Origin: Bradyrhizobium cosmicum
GTDB taxonomy: Bacteria > Pseudomonadota > Alphaproteobacteria > Rhizobiales > Xanthobacteraceae
Length of the DNA stretch: 64,000 nucleotides
Reading direction: 5' to 3'
Assembly: GCF_007290395.2 (NCBI RefSeq)
Contig: NZ_CP041656.2
Location: 6,977,501-7,041,500, forward strand
A program made the translations under genes and the position numbers. Shown here piece after piece: positions 57,922 through 63,613 of this stretch (its first letter is position 1; every line of letters begins with the position of its first letter). The notes below the pieces were generated by a model. The model worked only from the letters and a program-made list of their open reading frames with translations, was not told the origin of the DNA and ran no database searches.

Positions 57922-58650
57922 TCAAATCCCCAAATACTTATGCTGCAGATCCGGCTCGGCCATCAGCTGGTCGGACGTGCCGCTCCACACCGTCTTGCCG
58001 CGCTCGATGATGTAGTGGCGGTCGCAGATGCGGGCGAGGTGGTCGACGTTCTTGTCGACGACCAGGATCGACTGTCCGCGGCTCTTGAGCAGCGACAGGC
58101 AGCTCCAGATTTCCTCGCGGATCAGCGGGGCGAGGCCTTCGGTCGCTTCGTCCAGGATCAGCAGCTTCGGATTGGTCATCAGCGCGCGGCCGATCGCGAG
58201 CATCTGCTGCTCGCCGCCGGAGAGCTGGTTGCCCATGTTGGAGGCGCGCTCGGCGAGCCGCGGGAACATCACGTAGATGGCGGCGAGCGTCCAGGGATTG
58301 GCGCTATCGAAGCGATCGGCGGCGGCCGCAACCAGGTTTTCGCGCACGGTGAGATTCGGGAAAATCTGGCGCCCCTCGGGGACGAGGCCGACGCCGAGCT
58401 TGGCGATACGGTAGGACGGCTGCGTCCGCACCTCCGTGCCGGCAAAACGGATGCTGCCCGCGCGCGCCGGCGTCAGGCCCATGATGGAGCGGATGGTGGT
58501 GGTCTTGCCCATGCCGTTGCGGCCCATCAGCGAGACCATCTCGCCCGATTTGATCGACAGCGACAGGCCGAACAGGACCTGGCTGAGGCCGTAGCAGGTC
58601 TCGATGCCGTCGACGTCGAGCAGCGCGTCAGCCATCATGTCTTCAGCCAT
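57922..58650 (-). CDS. livF: branched-chain amino acid/aromatic acid-type ABC transporter ATPase LivF
   Basis: A 242-residue ATPase with Walker A GRNGMGKTT (43-51), VPEGRQIFPNLTVRENL (LivF-specific), signature LSGGEQQ, Walker B LLILDEATEGLAP. The switch position reads VVDKNVD rather than the usual VEQN. It overlaps the LivG gene by 8 nt. The four-gene order livH-livM-livG-livF is that of high-affinity Liv transporters, which in aromatic clusters often import aromatic acids. Confidence 0.9.
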   Translation of the reverse strand: MAEDMMADALLDVDGIETCYGLSQVLFGLSLSIKSGEMVSLMGRNGMGKTTTIRSIMGLTPARAGSIRFAGTEVRTQPSYRIAKLGVGLVPEGRQIFPNLTVRENLVAAAADRFDSANPWTLAAIYVMFPRLAERASNMGNQLSGGEQQMLAIGRALMTNPKLLILDEATEGLAPLIREEIWSCLSLLKSRGQSILVVDKNVDHLARICDRHYIIERGKTVWSGTSDQLMAEPDLQHKYLGI

Positions 58651-59410
58651 GGTGCGTCACCACATGCTGGTCGCCGAGATAGGCGCGCTTGACCTCGTCG
58701 TTGGCGCGGATCGCGGCCGGATCGCCCGAGGCGATGACGCGGCCATAGACCAGCACCGTGATGCGGTCGGCCAGCGCGAACACCGCGGGCATGTCGTGCT
58801 CGACCAGGACGATCGAGACCTCCTTGCGCAGCTCCTGCAGCAGCTTGACCATGCTCTGGGATTCGGTGACGCCGAGGCCCGCCATCGGCTCGTCGAGCAG
58901 CAGCAATTTCGGCTTGCTCGCGAGCGCGACCGCAAGCTCGATCTGGCGGCGCTCGCCATGGCTGAGCCTGGACACCAGGATATCGGCACGATGCAGCAGC
59001 CCGACGCGGTCGAGCGCGGCATGGGCGGCATCGCGCAGGCCCTTTTCCTTGCGGGCATTGGCGAAGAAACGGAACGAGTGGCCTGCATGCGCCTGGGCCG
59101 CCAGCGCGACATTGTCGGCGGCAGTGAAATCCAGCAGCAGCGAGGTGATCTGGAACGAGCGGGCAAGGCCCAGCGCGCAGCGACGATAGGCCGGCAGATA
59201 GGTGATGTCGCGGCCGCCGAGCGAGACGCTGCCGGAATGCGGTTCGAGATGCCCGGTGAGCTGGCTGATCAGCGTGGTCTTGCCGGCACCGTTCGGGCCG
59301 ATGATCGCATGCAGCTCGCCGGCCGCGACGTCGAGCGACACGTGATCCGTCGCGATGATGCCGCCGAAGCGGCGCACCAGTCTGTCGACCCGGAGCAGAG
59401 GCTCAGCCAC
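58643..59410 (-). CDS. livG: Liv-type ABC transporter ATPase LivG
   Basis: A 255-residue ATPase with Walker A GPNGAGKTT, the LivG block ARSFQITSLLLDFTAADNV, signature LSHGERRQIELAVALA, Walker B LLLLDEPMAGLG and switch His in VEHDM. It pairs with LivF, overlapping it by 8 nt, and overlaps livM by 8 nt at its start. Confidence 0.9.
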   Translation of the reverse strand: MAEPLLRVDRLVRRFGGIIATDHVSLDVAAGELHAIIGPNGAGKTTLISQLTGHLEPHSGSVSLGGRDITYLPAYRRCALGLARSFQITSLLLDFTAADNVALAAQAHAGHSFRFFANARKEKGLRDAAHAALDRVGLLHRADILVSRLSHGERRQIELAVALASKPKLLLLDEPMAGLGVTESQSMVKLLQELRKEVSIVLVEHDMPAVFALADRITVLVYGRVIASGDPAAIRANDEVKRAYLGDQHVVTHHG

Positions 59411-60347
59411 GATTGAACCTCCCGAGCAGGCCCATGATGCCGCCGCGGCCGAACAGCACGATCAGCAGCAGCATCGGCCCCATGATCAGCGCCCAATATT
59501 CGGTGAGCTGCGACAGGAACTCCTCCAGCAGCAGATACACCACGGCGCCCATGACGGGACCGAACAGCGTGCCCATGCCGCCGAGGATCACCATCACCAT
59601 GAGATCGCCGGACCGGGTCCAGTACATCACGGCCGGGCTGATGAAATCGGTATTGTTGGCGAGCAGCGCGCCGGCGAGGCCACACATCATGCCGGAGATG
59701 ACGAAGCAGACGAGCTGGTAGCGCTTCGCCGGGAAGCCGATCGCCTGCATGCGCTGCTCATTGGAGCGCAGTCCCTGCACGACCAGGCCGAAGCGCGAAT
59801 TGGCGATGCGCCAGATCAGGAAGATGACACCGAGGAGGCAGGCGAGGCAGAGATAGTAGAACTGAGTGCGATTGCCGAGATTGATCAGCCCGGAGAAGTC
59901 GCTGCGCTTGTAGACGGTGAGGCCGTCGTCGCCGCCGTAGCGCGCCAGGCCGGAGGCGACGTAATAGGCCATCTGCGCGAAGGCGAGCGTGATCATGATG
60001 AAATAGACGCCGCGGGTGCGCAAGCTCAGCGCGCCGATCACCAGGGCATAGAGCGCGGAGGCAGCCAGCGCGACTGGAAACTGGATGAAGCCGGAGCCGA
60101 CGCCTTCCTGCGCGAGCATGCCGACGGCATAGCCGCCGATGCCGAGATAGGCGGCATGGCCGAAGCTCATCATGCCGCCATAGCCCATGATGAGGTTGAG
60201 GCTCGCGGCCGCCAGCGCCAGGATGACGATGCGGGTGAACAGCGTCAGGATGAAGACGTTGCCGGATGCTTGCGAATACAGCGGCAGCAGCATGAGGCCG
60301 GCCAGCATCAGGGCCGTGACGGCCTTGCTCACGGTGATAGTTTTCAT
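59403..60347 (-). CDS. livM: Liv-type ABC transporter permease LivM
   Basis: A 314-residue inner-membrane permease with about eight hydrophobic segments. NLIMGYGGMMSFGHAAYLGIGGY and RSNEQRMQAIGFPAKRYQLVCFVISG (EAA-like) are LivM hallmarks. A substrate-path motif follows as GGMGTLFGPVMGAVV. It overlaps both neighbours by a few bases, showing one translationally coupled operon. Confidence 0.9.
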   Translation of the reverse strand: MKTITVSKAVTALMLAGLMLLPLYSQASGNVFILTLFTRIVILALAAASLNLIMGYGGMMSFGHAAYLGIGGYAVGMLAQEGVGSGFIQFPVALAASALYALVIGALSLRTRGVYFIMITLAFAQMAYYVASGLARYGGDDGLTVYKRSDFSGLINLGNRTQFYYLCLACLLGVIFLIWRIANSRFGLVVQGLRSNEQRMQAIGFPAKRYQLVCFVISGMMCGLAGALLANNTDFISPAVMYWTRSGDLMVMVILGGMGTLFGPVMGAVVYLLLEEFLSQLTEYWALIMGPMLLLIVLFGRGGIMGLLGRFNRG

Positions 60348-61261
60348 CGACGATTGGCCGGAAACAGCCCCTCCGGCCGCACCACCAGCACGATCGCCAT
60401 CAACAGGTAGATCAACATGGAGGACAGCGCGGGCGCGGCGGTGGAAGCAGCGGCGCCGCTCAGCACCTGCCGCAGCAGATTGGGCAGGAAGGCACGGCCG
60501 AGCGTGTCGATCATGCCGACGAAGATCGCGGCAAGGAACGCGCCGCGGATCGAGCCGATGCCGCCGATCACGATGATGACGAAGGCGAGGATCAGGATGT
60601 TCTCGCCCATCCCGATCTGTACGGTGAGGATCGGCGCCTGCATCAGGCCGGCAAGGCCGGCGAGCGCGGCTCCAAGGCCGAACACCAGCGTGTAGAGCAG
60701 CTTGATGTTGATGCCGAGCGCGCCGATCATCTCGCGGTTGGAGGCGCCGGCGCGGATCAGCATGCCGATGCGGGTGCGCATCACGCCGAGATAGAGCAGC
60801 AGCGCGACCAGCAGCGCCACCACGATGATGGCGAGGCGATAGGCCGGATAGTGAATGCCGGGCAGGATCGGCACCGGCACGGTCAGCCAGGCGGGCAGCG
60901 GCAGCGCGAGGCCGGCCGGGCCCCAGATCAGGCGCACCGCTTCATTGAAGAACAGGATCAGGCCGAAGGTCGCGAGCACGTGGTCGAGATGGTCGCGACC
61001 ATAGAGATGCCGCAGCGCGCTCATCTCCAGCACGATGCCGAGCAGAAGCGTGGCGCCGAGCGCCAGCAGCGCACCGAGCAGGAAGCTTCCGGTCGAGGCC
61101 GCGAAGGTCGCCGCGAAATAGGCGCCCATCATGTAGAGCGAGCCGTGCGCGAGGTTGACGAGATCCATGATCCCGAACACCAGCGTCAGGCCCGCGGCGA
61201 GCAGGAACAGCAGCAGGCCAAACTGCAATCCGTTCAGGAACTGTTCGACGACAAGCAGCAT
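60344..61261 (-). CDS. livH: Liv-type ABC transporter permease LivH
   Basis: A 305-residue permease with about eight hydrophobic segments. The N-terminal GLQFGLLLFLLAAGLTLVFG and DLVNLAHGSLYMMGAYF, and the EAA loop RAGASNREMIGALGINIK, match LivH. It is the first gene of the operon. No periplasmic binding-protein gene (livK) is beside it, so that subunit must be encoded elsewhere. Confidence 0.9.
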   Translation of the reverse strand: MLLVVEQFLNGLQFGLLLFLLAAGLTLVFGIMDLVNLAHGSLYMMGAYFAATFAASTGSFLLGALLALGATLLLGIVLEMSALRHLYGRDHLDHVLATFGLILFFNEAVRLIWGPAGLALPLPAWLTVPVPILPGIHYPAYRLAIIVVALLVALLLYLGVMRTRIGMLIRAGASNREMIGALGINIKLLYTLVFGLGAALAGLAGLMQAPILTVQIGMGENILILAFVIIVIGGIGSIRGAFLAAIFVGMIDTLGRAFLPNLLRQVLSGAAASTAAPALSSMLIYLLMAIVLVVRPEGLFPANRR

Positions 61262-61419: not shown

Positions 61420-61518
61420 CCGGACGCGTGTGGTCGAACACGCCTTGCTCAAGTCTTCAACAAATCCCTGCAAGAAAGCTGCCGAGCGGCGTGGGGCAAC
61501 CTGCCGCACCCAAACAAT

Positions 61519-61550
61519 CACCCTCCCCGCGGCAGGCCGTGGGGAGGGTG
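61519..61550 (-). terminator. hairpin downstream of the bjaI operon
   Basis: CACCCTCCCC (61519-61528) / GGGGAGGGTG (61541-61550), a perfect 10-bp stem with a 12-nt loop. On the minus strand it is followed by TGATTGTTTG, a moderately T-rich tail, 30 nt after the last stop codon of the operon. It may also be a member of a dispersed GGGGAGGG palindrome family. Confidence 0.6.
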
Positions 61551-61579
61551 TGAATTCGCCGGAGTGACGAAGAGGACGT

Positions 61580-61798
61580 CTAGTGCGACGTGATCTCCCG
61601 GGAATGGTCGTCCCGTTCGGGATGCATGCTGTCTGCCGTCGAGGCCTCAAGGGCCGCCATCCGGAACAGATAGGCGAGCGTCGCCAATCCGGAGTCGTCC
61701 GCCATTTGCGCGAGCTCGAGCGCCATGTCGGACATGTAGCCGAGATTCTCGTCCCTGGTCTGCGCCATGGTCTGGGTGTCCCGCATCATGTTCGTCAT
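61580..61798 (-). CDS. 72-residue conserved-looking protein coupled to bjaI
   Basis: A 72-residue acidic, helical-looking protein rich in Met, Asp and Glu (MTNMMRDTQTMAQTRDENLG, then YMSDMALELAQMADDSGLAT) ending with a His-containing tail. ATG 61798 lies one nucleotide after the bjaI TGA, so translation is coupled. No signal peptide or membrane segment is present and no family is recognised. The tight placement suggests a role with AHL signalling, such as a modulator or a stability partner, but this is inference only. Upstream residues of the longer frame lie inside bjaI and are not used. Confidence 0.7.
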   Translation of the reverse strand: MTNMMRDTQTMAQTRDENLGYMSDMALELAQMADDSGLATLAYLFRMAALEASTADSMHPERDDHSREITSH

Positions 61799-61799
61799 C

Positions 61800-62459
61800 T
61801 CAAGCGCTCTTTCGTTGCGCGGCAGCGAGGCCGCAGAGGTTGGCACGGGCAACGGCGTCCAGACGCGGGCCGTCCTGTCGCACGATCGACGCGACGCCGA
61901 TGCGATCATGCAGGGCGTCGACCGTCTCGCGGCGAATGTCGATGGTTGCCGCCATGGTCCAGGCGTTCTCCACCAGAGCCGGCAGTCCAAGCGGGGTCAC
62001 GATGAAGCCGGCCTCGTGGAAGCGCGGCAACCACCAGGTCTCCATGATCGCGCTGACCTGCGCGATGCCTTGATTGAGGCAGAACTCCTGCACCGCCGCC
62101 ATCAGCTGCAGGTTGAGCGGGCCGTCGCGGCGGTCGCGGACGACGAAGTAGCGCGACCACTCCCACACCAGCGGGTCAGCCGGGCAGCCGCGCACCGCGG
62201 CCAGATGCGGAAAGACCTCGCTCATCATCGAGGGCTTGGTCGTCGGGTAGAGCCGGTGACCGCCAATGACGCGGCGCCCCTCCAGCGCGAGCAGGTAGAC
62301 CGTGTCCTCGTTGTCGTAGGAATCGATCTCGCGGCCATCCGGCTTGCGCAGCGTGTCCCAGTGCCGCTCCTCGACGAAGATGTCGTGGCGCAGCCGGAAA
62401 TGCTGCTCGAGAACGTCTTGGTAAAGGTGGCGATTGACCGCAGAAATTGCATGAATCAT
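61800..62459 (-). CDS. bjaI: acyl-homoserine lactone synthase (BjaI/BraI type)
   Basis: A 219-residue LuxI-family synthase using the ATG at 62459 (MIHAISAVNRHLY), which has GGGGG 5 nt upstream; an ATG four codons earlier is also possible. Conserved LuxI residues are all present: FRLRHDIFVEERHW (Arg, Phe, Trp), EIDSYDNEDTVYLLAL (the two Asp), GGHRLYPT (Arg) and WEWSRYFV (Glu-x-Ser-Arg). Bradyrhizobium homologues use acyl-CoA such as isovaleryl- or cinnamoyl-CoA rather than acyl-ACP. It lies downstream of the cognate luxR gene, with a 22-bp palindrome between. Confidence 0.9.
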   Translation of the reverse strand: MIHAISAVNRHLYQDVLEQHFRLRHDIFVEERHWDTLRKPDGREIDSYDNEDTVYLLALEGRRVIGGHRLYPTTKPSMMSEVFPHLAAVRGCPADPLVWEWSRYFVVRDRRDGPLNLQLMAAVQEFCLNQGIAQVSAIMETWWLPRFHEAGFIVTPLGLPALVENAWTMAATIDIRRETVDALHDRIGVASIVRQDGPRLDAVARANLCGLAAAQRKSA

Positions 62460-62490
62460 GAAAACCCCCATTCAGCCTCAATGGGAGTCA

Positions 62491-62508
62491 GCCTCTGTGA
62501 AAAGAGGC
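62491..62508 (-). other. small hairpin in the bjaI leader
   Basis: GCCTCT (62491-62496) and AGAGGC (62503-62508) form a 6-bp stem with a 6-nt loop. It lies between the 22-bp palindrome and the bjaI start, probably inside the 5' leader. Confidence 0.45.
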
Positions 62509-62515
62509 AGGCTCG

Positions 62516-62537
62516 ATACTGGGAAATTTCCCAGTAT
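62516..62537. promoter_or_regulatory. 22-bp perfect palindrome (lux-box-like) before bjaI
   Basis: The 22-bp perfect palindrome has half-site ATACTGGGAAA and spans 62516-62537. It lies between the bjaR stop (62543) and the bjaI start, centred about 67 nt upstream of the bjaI ATG, where LuxR-type activators bind. It is the strongest palindrome in this region. Confidence 0.8.
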
Positions 62538-62542
62538 GTCGC

Positions 62543-63271
62543 TCAGGGAGTGATGATCTTGTTGCGAATCGCCAGCGCGACCGCATGCGTACGGTTGACG
62601 GCACCCAACTTGCGCGCAGCGGTTGCGAGATGCTCTTCGGCGGTGCGCTGCGTGATGTGCAGGATCTCGCCGATTTCCCAGGCCGACTTGCCCTGCGAGG
62701 CCCACGCGATCACCTCGCGCTCGCGCGGGGTGAGACGGGCCGGGGGATACGGCACCGGCTGGAGCAGGCGGCGGATGTGGTCGAAGCCATACATCGCCAT
62801 CAAATGCAGCGCCGGCTTGCTGCGGGCATTGAGATCGAGATGAACGCCGCCGAGCGACACCGCGGCCTCGTAGCCGGTCAGCCCGTGGATCGGCACTATG
62901 AAACCGCGCGACATGCGAAAATCGCCGGCGCGGTTCATCACCTCGGCCGCATCCGGTTCCAGGTCGGCGTCATACGGCGCTTCCGCCCATTCGAACGGGT
63001 TGACCGATTGCCGGCACAACCGCACCACCGGATCGACACGATCGTAGTTGTTCCGGGTGTAGAGACTGAACCATTCTGCCGGCCAGCGCTTGGCCAGCAC
63101 CATCTGCGCAAACCGTTGATCGGGATTCGGCAATCCCGTCACGATGATGGTTTCGAAGCCGAAGCGGCCGAACGCCGTTTCGAGCGCATTCATGGCGTCC
63201 GGGACCTTGCGATAGGTCCCGAGGCCCTCGATGAAGTCGAGCGCCTCCCGGCCATAGTCTACGGCGGACAT
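62543..63271 (-). CDS. bjaR: LuxR-family AHL receptor (BjaR/BraR type)
   Basis: A 242-residue quorum-sensing regulator. The autoinducer-binding domain has the conserved WFSLYTRNNYDRVDPVV (Trp/Tyr/Asp/Pro set) and FEWAE. The C-terminal LuxR helix-turn-helix is LTPREREVIAWASQGKSAWE through TAEEHLATAARKLGAVNR. ATG 63271 gives the usual length (MSAVDYGREALDF); the upstream extension is not family-like. It is directly upstream of bjaI on the same strand. Confidence 0.9.
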   Translation of the reverse strand: MSAVDYGREALDFIEGLGTYRKVPDAMNALETAFGRFGFETIIVTGLPNPDQRFAQMVLAKRWPAEWFSLYTRNNYDRVDPVVRLCRQSVNPFEWAEAPYDADLEPDAAEVMNRAGDFRMSRGFIVPIHGLTGYEAAVSLGGVHLDLNARSKPALHLMAMYGFDHIRRLLQPVPYPPARLTPREREVIAWASQGKSAWEIGEILHITQRTAEEHLATAARKLGAVNRTHAVALAIRNKIITP

Positions 63272-63393
63272 CGGTGCGTTTCCTGACCCACGCCTTCCCG
63301 TATAGCACGTATTTGTGGGCTGCCTCAATTTGCTGCTCCCGTAGTTTTGCGGCCCCGTTCGATCCGAGAATTTAATCTACTTGTGGAAGAAGT

Positions 63394-63418
63394 GACGCCA
63401 AGTTACACCTGTGGCGTC
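63394..63418. other. hairpin upstream of the 58-residue ORF
   Basis: GACGCCA (63394-63400) / TGGCGTC (63412-63418) forms a perfect 7-bp stem with an 11-nt loop, 18 nt before ATG 63437. It may be a leader structure or a divergent operator for bjaR. Confidence 0.45.
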
Positions 63419-63436
63419 TAAAGCGGGAAAACCACG

Positions 63437-63613
63437 ATGGAAGACGAGGACATCGCCCTCAACAGCGTGCTCGGCCTTGAACTGAACCGCGTGTTTTTTG
63501 CCGTCCACGAAACGGCGAACAAGCAGAAGATCATCGAGTTCGCGCGCGAGGTGCTGCAAAGCGAGCACACGGAGCGGCCCGGCAGCGTGTCGCCGGAAGG
63601 ACCGGCGAGCTAG
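63437..63613 (+). CDS. small hypothetical protein, 58 residues
   Basis: An ORF of 58 codons plus stop beginning MEDEDIALNSVLGLELNRVF. The middle ETANKQKIIEFAREVLQSEH looks amphipathic and helical, and the end is Pro/Ser-rich. Third-position GC is high, like the neighbouring genes, whereas the opposite-strand frame over the same DNA is Arg-rich and shadow-like. The ribosome site is weak. It is divergent from bjaR; no function is recognised. Confidence 0.5.
   Translation: MEDEDIALNSVLGLELNRVFFAVHETANKQKIIEFAREVLQSEHTERPGSVSPEGPAS

Follow-up and report, generated by a model that had tools for sequence, protein, structure and literature searches.

A conserved putative lux box between bjaR and bjaI of Bradyrhizobium and a candidate masked ribosome site in the bjaI leader

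The lux box of Vibrio fischeri is a 20-bp CT-N12-AG repeat centred at about −42.5. For the bja system, the founding BjaI paper is that of Lindemann et al. (2011). A section of PMC4338825 describes the CT-N12-AG spacing as typical of lux boxes. In USDA 110, bjaI and bjaR bear the gene numbers blr1063 and blr1062 in an excerpt of PMC4070871, and a table of PMC5977203 lists the phenotype that they regulate as unknown. According to the passages on these constructs, BjaR activates a promoter carrying its site in E. coli reporters (PMC10449621, PMC6478669), and hybrid pBja promoters, in which the BjaR site stands before a core promoter, are activated by isovaleryl-HSL or C4-HSL (PMC6478669, PMC10449621, PMC7445162), so that BjaR-driven hybrid promoters as such are already known. 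In Rhodopseudomonas palustris, lux-box-like repeats are placed at −76 and −35 of the rpaI start codon (an extract of PMC10305029), and in Mesorhizobium japonicum, an inverted repeat, which the authors aligned with known LuxR-type sites, has its centre 61.5 bp before the start of I1 (the part of PMC10470506 on this locus).

The locus studied here lies in the window, by which is meant the whole 64-kb stretch of DNA analysed, and its order on the minus strand is bjaR, 5 nt, a palindrome, bjaI, 1 nt, a frame of 72 aa, and branched-chain amino acid transporter genes (Table 1). By sequence, the solved relatives of BjaR include LasR, CviR, RhlR, a quorum-sensing control repressor, and TraR. Both proteins are orthologous to those of USDA 110; BjaI is 92% identical to its orthologue in genome G026, which we take to be USDA 110, and by this orthology the locus would make and answer isovaleryl-HSL, as the characterised orthologue does. 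The branched-chain amino acid ABC transporter genes (57922-61261) lie directly downstream on the same strand. Isovaleryl-HSL would be built from leucine-derived isovaleryl-CoA, and because of this precursor the transporter neighbourhood may not be accidental.

Table 1. Features of the bjaR-bjaI locus, in window coordinates
Feature	Position	Strand	Remarks
Putative lux box of bjaI	62516..62537	.	perfect 22-bp palindrome; conserved 20-mer TACTGGGAAATTTCCCARTA
bjaI, LuxI-type acyl-homoserine-lactone synthase, 219 aa	61800..62459	-	Pfam Autoind_synth, E 5e-22
bjaR, LuxR-type regulator	62543..63271	-	autoinducer-binding domain and GerE HTH
TTTT tract	62500..62503	-	spans +23.5 to +26.5 relative to the box centre; its last two T are invariant
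−10-like GAGGCT (GAnnnT)	62490..62495	-	G, A and T each in 120/120 distinct sequences
Predicted bjaI transcription start	62482..62483	-	from the −10-like element
Leader hairpin GACTCCCATT-N7-AATGGGGGTT	62463..62489	-	folding of the intergenic RNA
72-aa reading frame, third gene of the locus	61580..61798	-	begins 1 nt past the bjaI stop; predicted helical hairpin

The palindrome between bjaR and bjaI and its conservation

The perfect 22-bp palindrome that the preliminary description had reported between bjaR and bjaI is indeed present, as ATACTGGGAAATTTCCCAGTAT, without mismatch. It starts 5 nt past the bjaR stop codon, and its centre (62526/62527) is 67.5 bp ahead of the bjaI ATG at 62459, which agrees with the distance of about 67 nt given earlier; this ATG has a Shine-Dalgarno-like GGGGG, and an alternative in-frame ATG at 62471 would reduce the distance to 55.5 bp. 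No other palindrome in the window reaches this length, the next longest being 16 bp, and base composition predicts about 0.04 palindromes of at least 22 bp per 64 kb. Its inner 20 bases read TA-CT-GGGAAATTTCCC-AG-TA. An inverted repeat of about 20 bp with CT-N12-AG is thus found at 62517-62536 (TACTGGGAAATTTCCCAGTA), ahead of a luxI gene that neighbours a luxR gene (Pfam domains Autoind_synth, Autoind_bind, and GerE), and since the lux-box pattern is there, the earlier statement that this is not a common lux-box sequence fails.

A second site with at most three mismatches occurs neither in the window (nor in 100 shuffles of it) nor elsewhere in the whole 7,271,215-base genome, which was the outcome of the scan for further copies proposed beforehand. 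A relaxed two-half-site pattern gave 110 forward matches in the same genome as against 346 for its reversed control, so no further BjaR targets can be named. In other genomes of the genus, the core was found away from bjaI at 26 loci, and the 19 at which reading frames were inspected have no common target gene. These off-site copies form three recurrent groups, two of which, judged by eye, presumably adjoin transposase-like frames; some matches lie inside reading frames, and one copy sits within an unrelated palindrome array. What appears by eye to be an array of differing palindromes of about 25 bp, some 45 nt apart, occupies approximately 1300-1600 of L171 (G121:C131), and one of its members equals the box except for one central base.

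The box was scored in the DNA upstream of 130 bjaI loci, which come from the 129 of 265 genus genomes that have a BjaI orthologue (73-100% identity); bjaR, at E 1e-70, is likewise found in 129 of the 265. A lack of conservation in close relatives had been named in advance as evidence against the site, and it was not what we observed: the box is present at 128 of the 130 loci, and its core, TGGGAAATTTCCCA, is invariant in all 128. The 20-mer is nearly invariant in these boxes while the flanks vary, and over about 1 kb of 127 aligned sequences the box is the most conserved stretch of 20 columns (0.993, against a mean of 0.88).

The symmetry itself fared differently. Only 8 of the 128 boxes are perfect over 22 bp, so a strongly conserved site is represented in the window by one of its rarer forms, and perfect symmetry can no longer be held to define it. 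The usual form in the genus is TACTGGGAAATTTCCCAATA, in which the 19th base is A rather than G (122/128), giving AA on the right side where symmetry with the usual C would need G. The G variant, present in six boxes, requires at least four changes on a quick bjaR tree, two of them forced by well-supported branches. At the variable pair, which lies inside the 20-mer, C faces A in 118 of the 128 boxes, and a T-A pair replaces the C-G pair in four.

These exchanges bear on whether the palindrome might act in RNA, as a hairpin or terminator ending bjaR. The four T-A replacements would suit such a role, as would the 9-bp hairpin into which the palindrome folds in the transcript; moreover, two terminator-like sites were called in 62400-63600, where 0.9 are expected, and one of them (62537-62555) touches the last base of the palindrome. 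However, both are on the plus strand, none was called on the strand of bjaR, and there is no T tract directly behind the palindrome. The pair is broken in the 118 boxes where C faces A, and AAATTT at the centre varies no more than the arms do, as expected for contact between protein and DNA. A role as hairpin or terminator is therefore very improbable.

The distribution of the site follows that of bjaI. With at most one mismatch, the 16-mer core occurs in all 129 genomes with bjaI (at bjaI itself in 127) and somewhere in 12 of the 136 without such a bjaI, and the reversed control pattern matches 2 of the 265. Of those 12 core-bearing genomes, G071 alone has bjaR (E 1e-70), with the box adjoining. 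On a wider scale, the 19-mer AYTGGGAAATTTCCCARTA was found in 96 stretches among 84,980 species genomes: 84 in Bradyrhizobium, one in a Bradyrhizobiaceae MAG, one in a ‘Frankia’ record, and 10 in others, which is close to the roughly 7.5 expected by chance if equal base frequencies are assumed. The records ‘Pseudomonas fluorescens’ (P0003) and ‘Frankia sp. RB7’ (L248) appear to be mislabelled Bradyrhizobium.

Could a regulator other than BjaR bind the box? We think this hardly probable, because the site has the geometry of a lux box and stands beside bjaR-bjaI in 127 of 129 genomes, because 11 of the 12 core matches in genomes without bjaI are in genomes that also lack bjaR, and because G071, with no intact bjaI, still has bjaR and the box. 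In G071 (L165, G071:C79), bjaI is, by eye, reduced to a 3′ remnant, and bjaR, the box, TTTT, GAGGCT, and the 72-aa frame are kept. This natural deletion of the synthase leaves the box centre about 127 nt before the 72-aa frame.

The recognition helices point in the same direction as this distribution. The region TQRTAEEH is conserved together with the box across the 128 BjaR orthologues; LuxR types with ERTVKFH pair with a different box, ACCTGTCCGATCGGACAGTA, and those with ERTVRWH pair with AACTGGGAGTTCTTCCAGTG. Three distant BjaR orthologues (about 66%) from another genus keep QRTAEEH, and their box is CACTGGGACTTTTCCCAATA or a near form of it.

The loci that depart from the rule speak on both sides. 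The two without a box are in G187 and G121. In the first (L131, G187:C16), the box is short by 1 bp beside a bjaR and a bjaI that both look damaged, and this coincidence favours an operator; the locus looks like a decaying quorum-sensing locus, in which the 72-aa frame is still open over its full length. In the second (L072, G121:C34), the left half-site is altered (ATACTGAATGGAATTCCCAGTAC) and bjaR and bjaI look intact, which counts against an operator, as does the asymmetry (AA) of the usual boxes; the response of this strain has possibly been rewired or lost. In G019 (L130), the bjaI match begins only at residue 35, yet the box is intact.

Promoter geometry and the mode of control

Between the box and bjaI, the four positions of the TTTT tract are conserved in 117, 118, 120, and 120 of 120 distinct sequences. 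Counted without gaps from the box centre, TT at +25.5/+26.5, GA at +31.5/+32.5, and T at +36.5 are each found in 120 of 120, and there is not one indel between the box and GAnnnT, while the distance to the ATG varies. From centre to ATG, this distance is 64 to 68 in 127 of the 128 loci, the exception being the late-starting match L130 (G019). GAnnnT keeps the A and the T of the −10 hexamer, which would put the box centre at about −43.5 relative to the predicted start, that is, in the class II position (near −42.5, over the −35 place).

A similar spacing was found with other LuxI types, where 26 of 35 promoters have an A and a T, four apart, in the peak from +31.5 to +33.5 (13 at +32.5, 8 at +33.5, and 5 at +31.5, with at most 3 at any other offset tested). 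These 35 are non-redundant promoters in which a box was found by a permissive search (6 of 10 pairs), so that some of their boxes may be spurious. At 49 of 92 tandem loci, the search gave no box.

No sigma-70 consensus promoter was called at the locus, as expected of an activator-dependent promoter, and no −35 is recognisable. GAGGCT retains only two of the six consensus bases of a −10, which counts against the operator reading. The main text of the Bradyrhizobium start-site paper, as far as represented in PMC4842269, does not name bjaI or blr1063.

The palindrome is thus very probably the lux box operator at which an AHL-bound BjaR dimer would activate bjaI. With its AHL, the dimer would bind the box at about −43, over the −35 place, and because of this overlap BjaR would be a class II activator, driving a promoter that has a weak −10 (GAGGCT) and lacks a −35. 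Activation of bjaI would feed back positively on AHL production, as is usual, and transcription of the 72-aa frame behind bjaI probably depends on the same promoter. The opposite mode, in which BjaR on the box represses bjaI until AHL arrives, has precedents in CarR and CepR2, named as LuxR-type repressors in a section of PMC4338825; it is nevertheless improbable here, since the class II place, the missing sigma-70 consensus, and the poor −10 suit activation and since in E. coli the BjaR that has been characterised is an activator (PMC10449621, in the passage on the reporter). The preliminary description had proposed a LuxR-type activator site for BjaR, and the position of the palindrome, its conservation, its co-occurrence with bjaR-bjaI, and the constant distance that separates it from the −10-like element all support this proposal, while BjaR binding, the direction of control, the isovaleryl-HSL ligand, and the start site are predictions. 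As far as the sequence can tell, this is an ordinary, conserved lux box for BjaR, and it offers an operator, a spacing, and a −10 defined by sequence for the isovaleryl-HSL system throughout a large genus of legume symbionts.

The bjaI leader and the ribosome sites of other luxI genes

It is the arrangement of promoter and leader that may surprise a specialist. The leader RNA can fold into a hairpin whose 3′ arm contains the Shine-Dalgarno (SD) GGGGG (62465-62469); most of its 5′ arm occupies the interval from the −10 to the predicted start. Of 109 distinct bjaI leaders, 108 have at least three of four SD bases paired upstream. Shuffling the 5′ arm alone gave a mean z of −2.5, and when arms were swapped, the native combination was lower in only 67%. 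Three distant orthologues retain the hairpin with other sequences. In the MAFFT leader alignment, the arms were not lined up, double changes were counted in 0 cells, and the excess of pairing over shuffles was small (39 of 500 were as high); the absence of double changes counts against a simple claim of covariation, and the case for the hairpin rests on a structure kept with unrelated sequences, on the 5′-arm shuffles, and on the swaps.

The position of the masking arm is regular: in all of the 103 bjaI leaders scored for it (out of 105), it is wholly (18) or partly (85) upstream of the predicted start. Cutting the RNA at that start lowered the mean SD pairing from 0.82 to 0.06 in 105 leaders, although any cut that removes the arm lowers pairing, so the weight lies in the position of the arm. 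Because of this position, masking should affect only the RNA that reads through from bjaR. Such RNA would include the 5′ arm, and the bjaI SD would be masked; RNA started at the BjaR-driven promoter would lack the arm, leaving the SD free and bjaI translated. That the hairpin masks the bjaI SD in read-through RNA depends wholly on the predicted start site, and it is put forward with less confidence than the operator.

Ribosome sites that are paired are also found before other luxI genes, whose arrangement was set with an HMM of LuxR proteins. A paired SD together with low energy was found at 79 of the 105 tandem loci and at 4 of the remaining 16. After the removal of redundancy, 52 of 71 tandem luxR-luxI loci were masked as compared with 4 of 16 others (p 0.0008) and with 6 of 128 background genes (p 5e-25), both p values being too small because the rows are related, and the background consisting of the 128 of 229 genes with an SD-like score of at least 4, a filter that the luxI set did not undergo. 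By SD pairing alone, the figures were 63 of 71 for tandem and 10 of 16 for non-tandem loci (5 of the 9 non-tandem loci first scored); since pairing is this common in the latter, the link with the tandem arrangement rests on the combined criterion.

The outcome varies with the length of the leader and with the choice of start: with 30-nt leaders and strict cut-offs, 4 of 37 other LuxI leaders passed, and with 45-nt leaders and another choice of start, most did. In a first control, for which the starts of most other luxI genes could not be set, 17 of 42 frames of the window had a paired SD-like stretch, with a mean energy of −7.9 as against −12.8 for bjaI. The loci left unscored were L359 and L390 (no start), L399 and L404 (internal stops), L413 and L416 (bjaI), L421 (a near-copy of L420), the G523 and G543 matches, and matches without a locus.

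In these other promoters, the bases with which the SD pairs have a median position of +39 relative to the box centre, past the −10 and ahead of the predicted start. For 34 of the 35 promoters above (one had no scored arm), the SD arm is wholly upstream of the predicted start in 21, partly in 12, and downstream in 1, and cutting the RNA there reduced the mean SD pairing from 0.87 to 0.21. The luxI leaders of L365 and L353, from genomes of the same taxonomic family, have very strong SD-masking stems, for instance GCTCCCCGCG...CGCGGGGAGC. In L365, which is outside the set of 34, TTTTTC follows the stem, so the hairpin may also terminate luxR transcripts in some species.

A different reading is that the leader hairpin works within the bjaI messenger, as an RNA thermometer or other switch, or as an attenuator. 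The lasI gene of Pseudomonas aeruginosa reportedly has an RNA thermometer or other switch in its messenger, and SD-masking hairpins before luxI-type genes can act as thermometers. A start further upstream would place the whole hairpin in the bjaI messenger, SD pairing alone is frequent in non-tandem luxI genes, and in L365 a T run follows the stem. Against this, 33 of the 34 luxI promoters and every scored bjaI leader have the masking arm wholly or partly upstream of the predicted start; a T-rich tail (at least 5 T of 8), as an intrinsic terminator would have, follows the stem in 11 of 103 bjaI leaders and in none of the 34 box-bearing, non-redundant leaders of other luxI genes; and Rfam, over 61500-63400, gave no match at the leader, its only hit being mir-2518 (E 0.95) inside bjaR. 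We regard this second reading as possible but rather doubtful.

With masking of read-through RNA, the SD of luxI would find its complement in the few bases that separate the −10 from the transcription start of the luxI promoter, the synthase would be made only when the lux box is occupied, and the feedback would stay off at low density even though luxR is transcribed into luxI. Our confidence is evenly balanced as to whether the tandem luxR-luxI pairs of Alphaproteobacteria carry such a read-through filter, with an operon that in Bradyrhizobium also has an obligatory third component of 72 aa. A masked leader, if true, would explain how tandem pairs avoid leaky signal production, and it would matter to anyone moving luxI leaders into synthetic circuits.

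The third gene and the known systems

The 72-aa frame is found in 130 of the 265 genomes, namely the 129 with bjaI and G071, and in no other. It is present at all 130 of the genus bjaI loci with at least 400 nt of downstream sequence (some in the same genome) and at none of the three bjaI loci of the other genus. Searches with it gave no Pfam family above the cut-off (DUF6417, E 0.067), no NCBIfam, and no PHROG family; it has 223 relatives, and among the 120 listed, nearly all of those with an organism name are Bradyrhizobium. The model is a helical hairpin (pLDDT 77), for which a structure search returned no significant fold (best E 0.79). A quorum-sensing modulator or effector is a possible role for this protein.

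In having three linked genes, the locus resembles R1-I1 of M. japonicum (PMC10470506, in its account of that locus), whose third gene belongs to the crotonase superfamily, whereas that of bja is the 72-aa frame. The hybrid pBja promoters differ in being engineered, and the identity of their BjaR site with the box of the genus is presumed. RpaR/rpaI of R. palustris has the same tandem order, rpaR, box, and rpaI, and genomes related to it have the A..T at the same distance from the box followed by an SD-masking hairpin, as in bja; the second of the rpaI repeats may correspond to this leader hairpin. RpaR/rpaI differs from bja in its box (ACCTGTCCGATCGGACAGTA) and in its recognition helix. In V. 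fischeri, luxR and luxI are divergent, in contrast to the tandem bjaR-bjaI. A parallel to the masking proposed for bjaI comes from phage T4, where the early read-through RNA of genes e and soc is masked at the ribosome site and the RNA from their own late promoter is unmasked; the masking is of the same kind, but it serves the timing of phage genes rather than quorum sensing.
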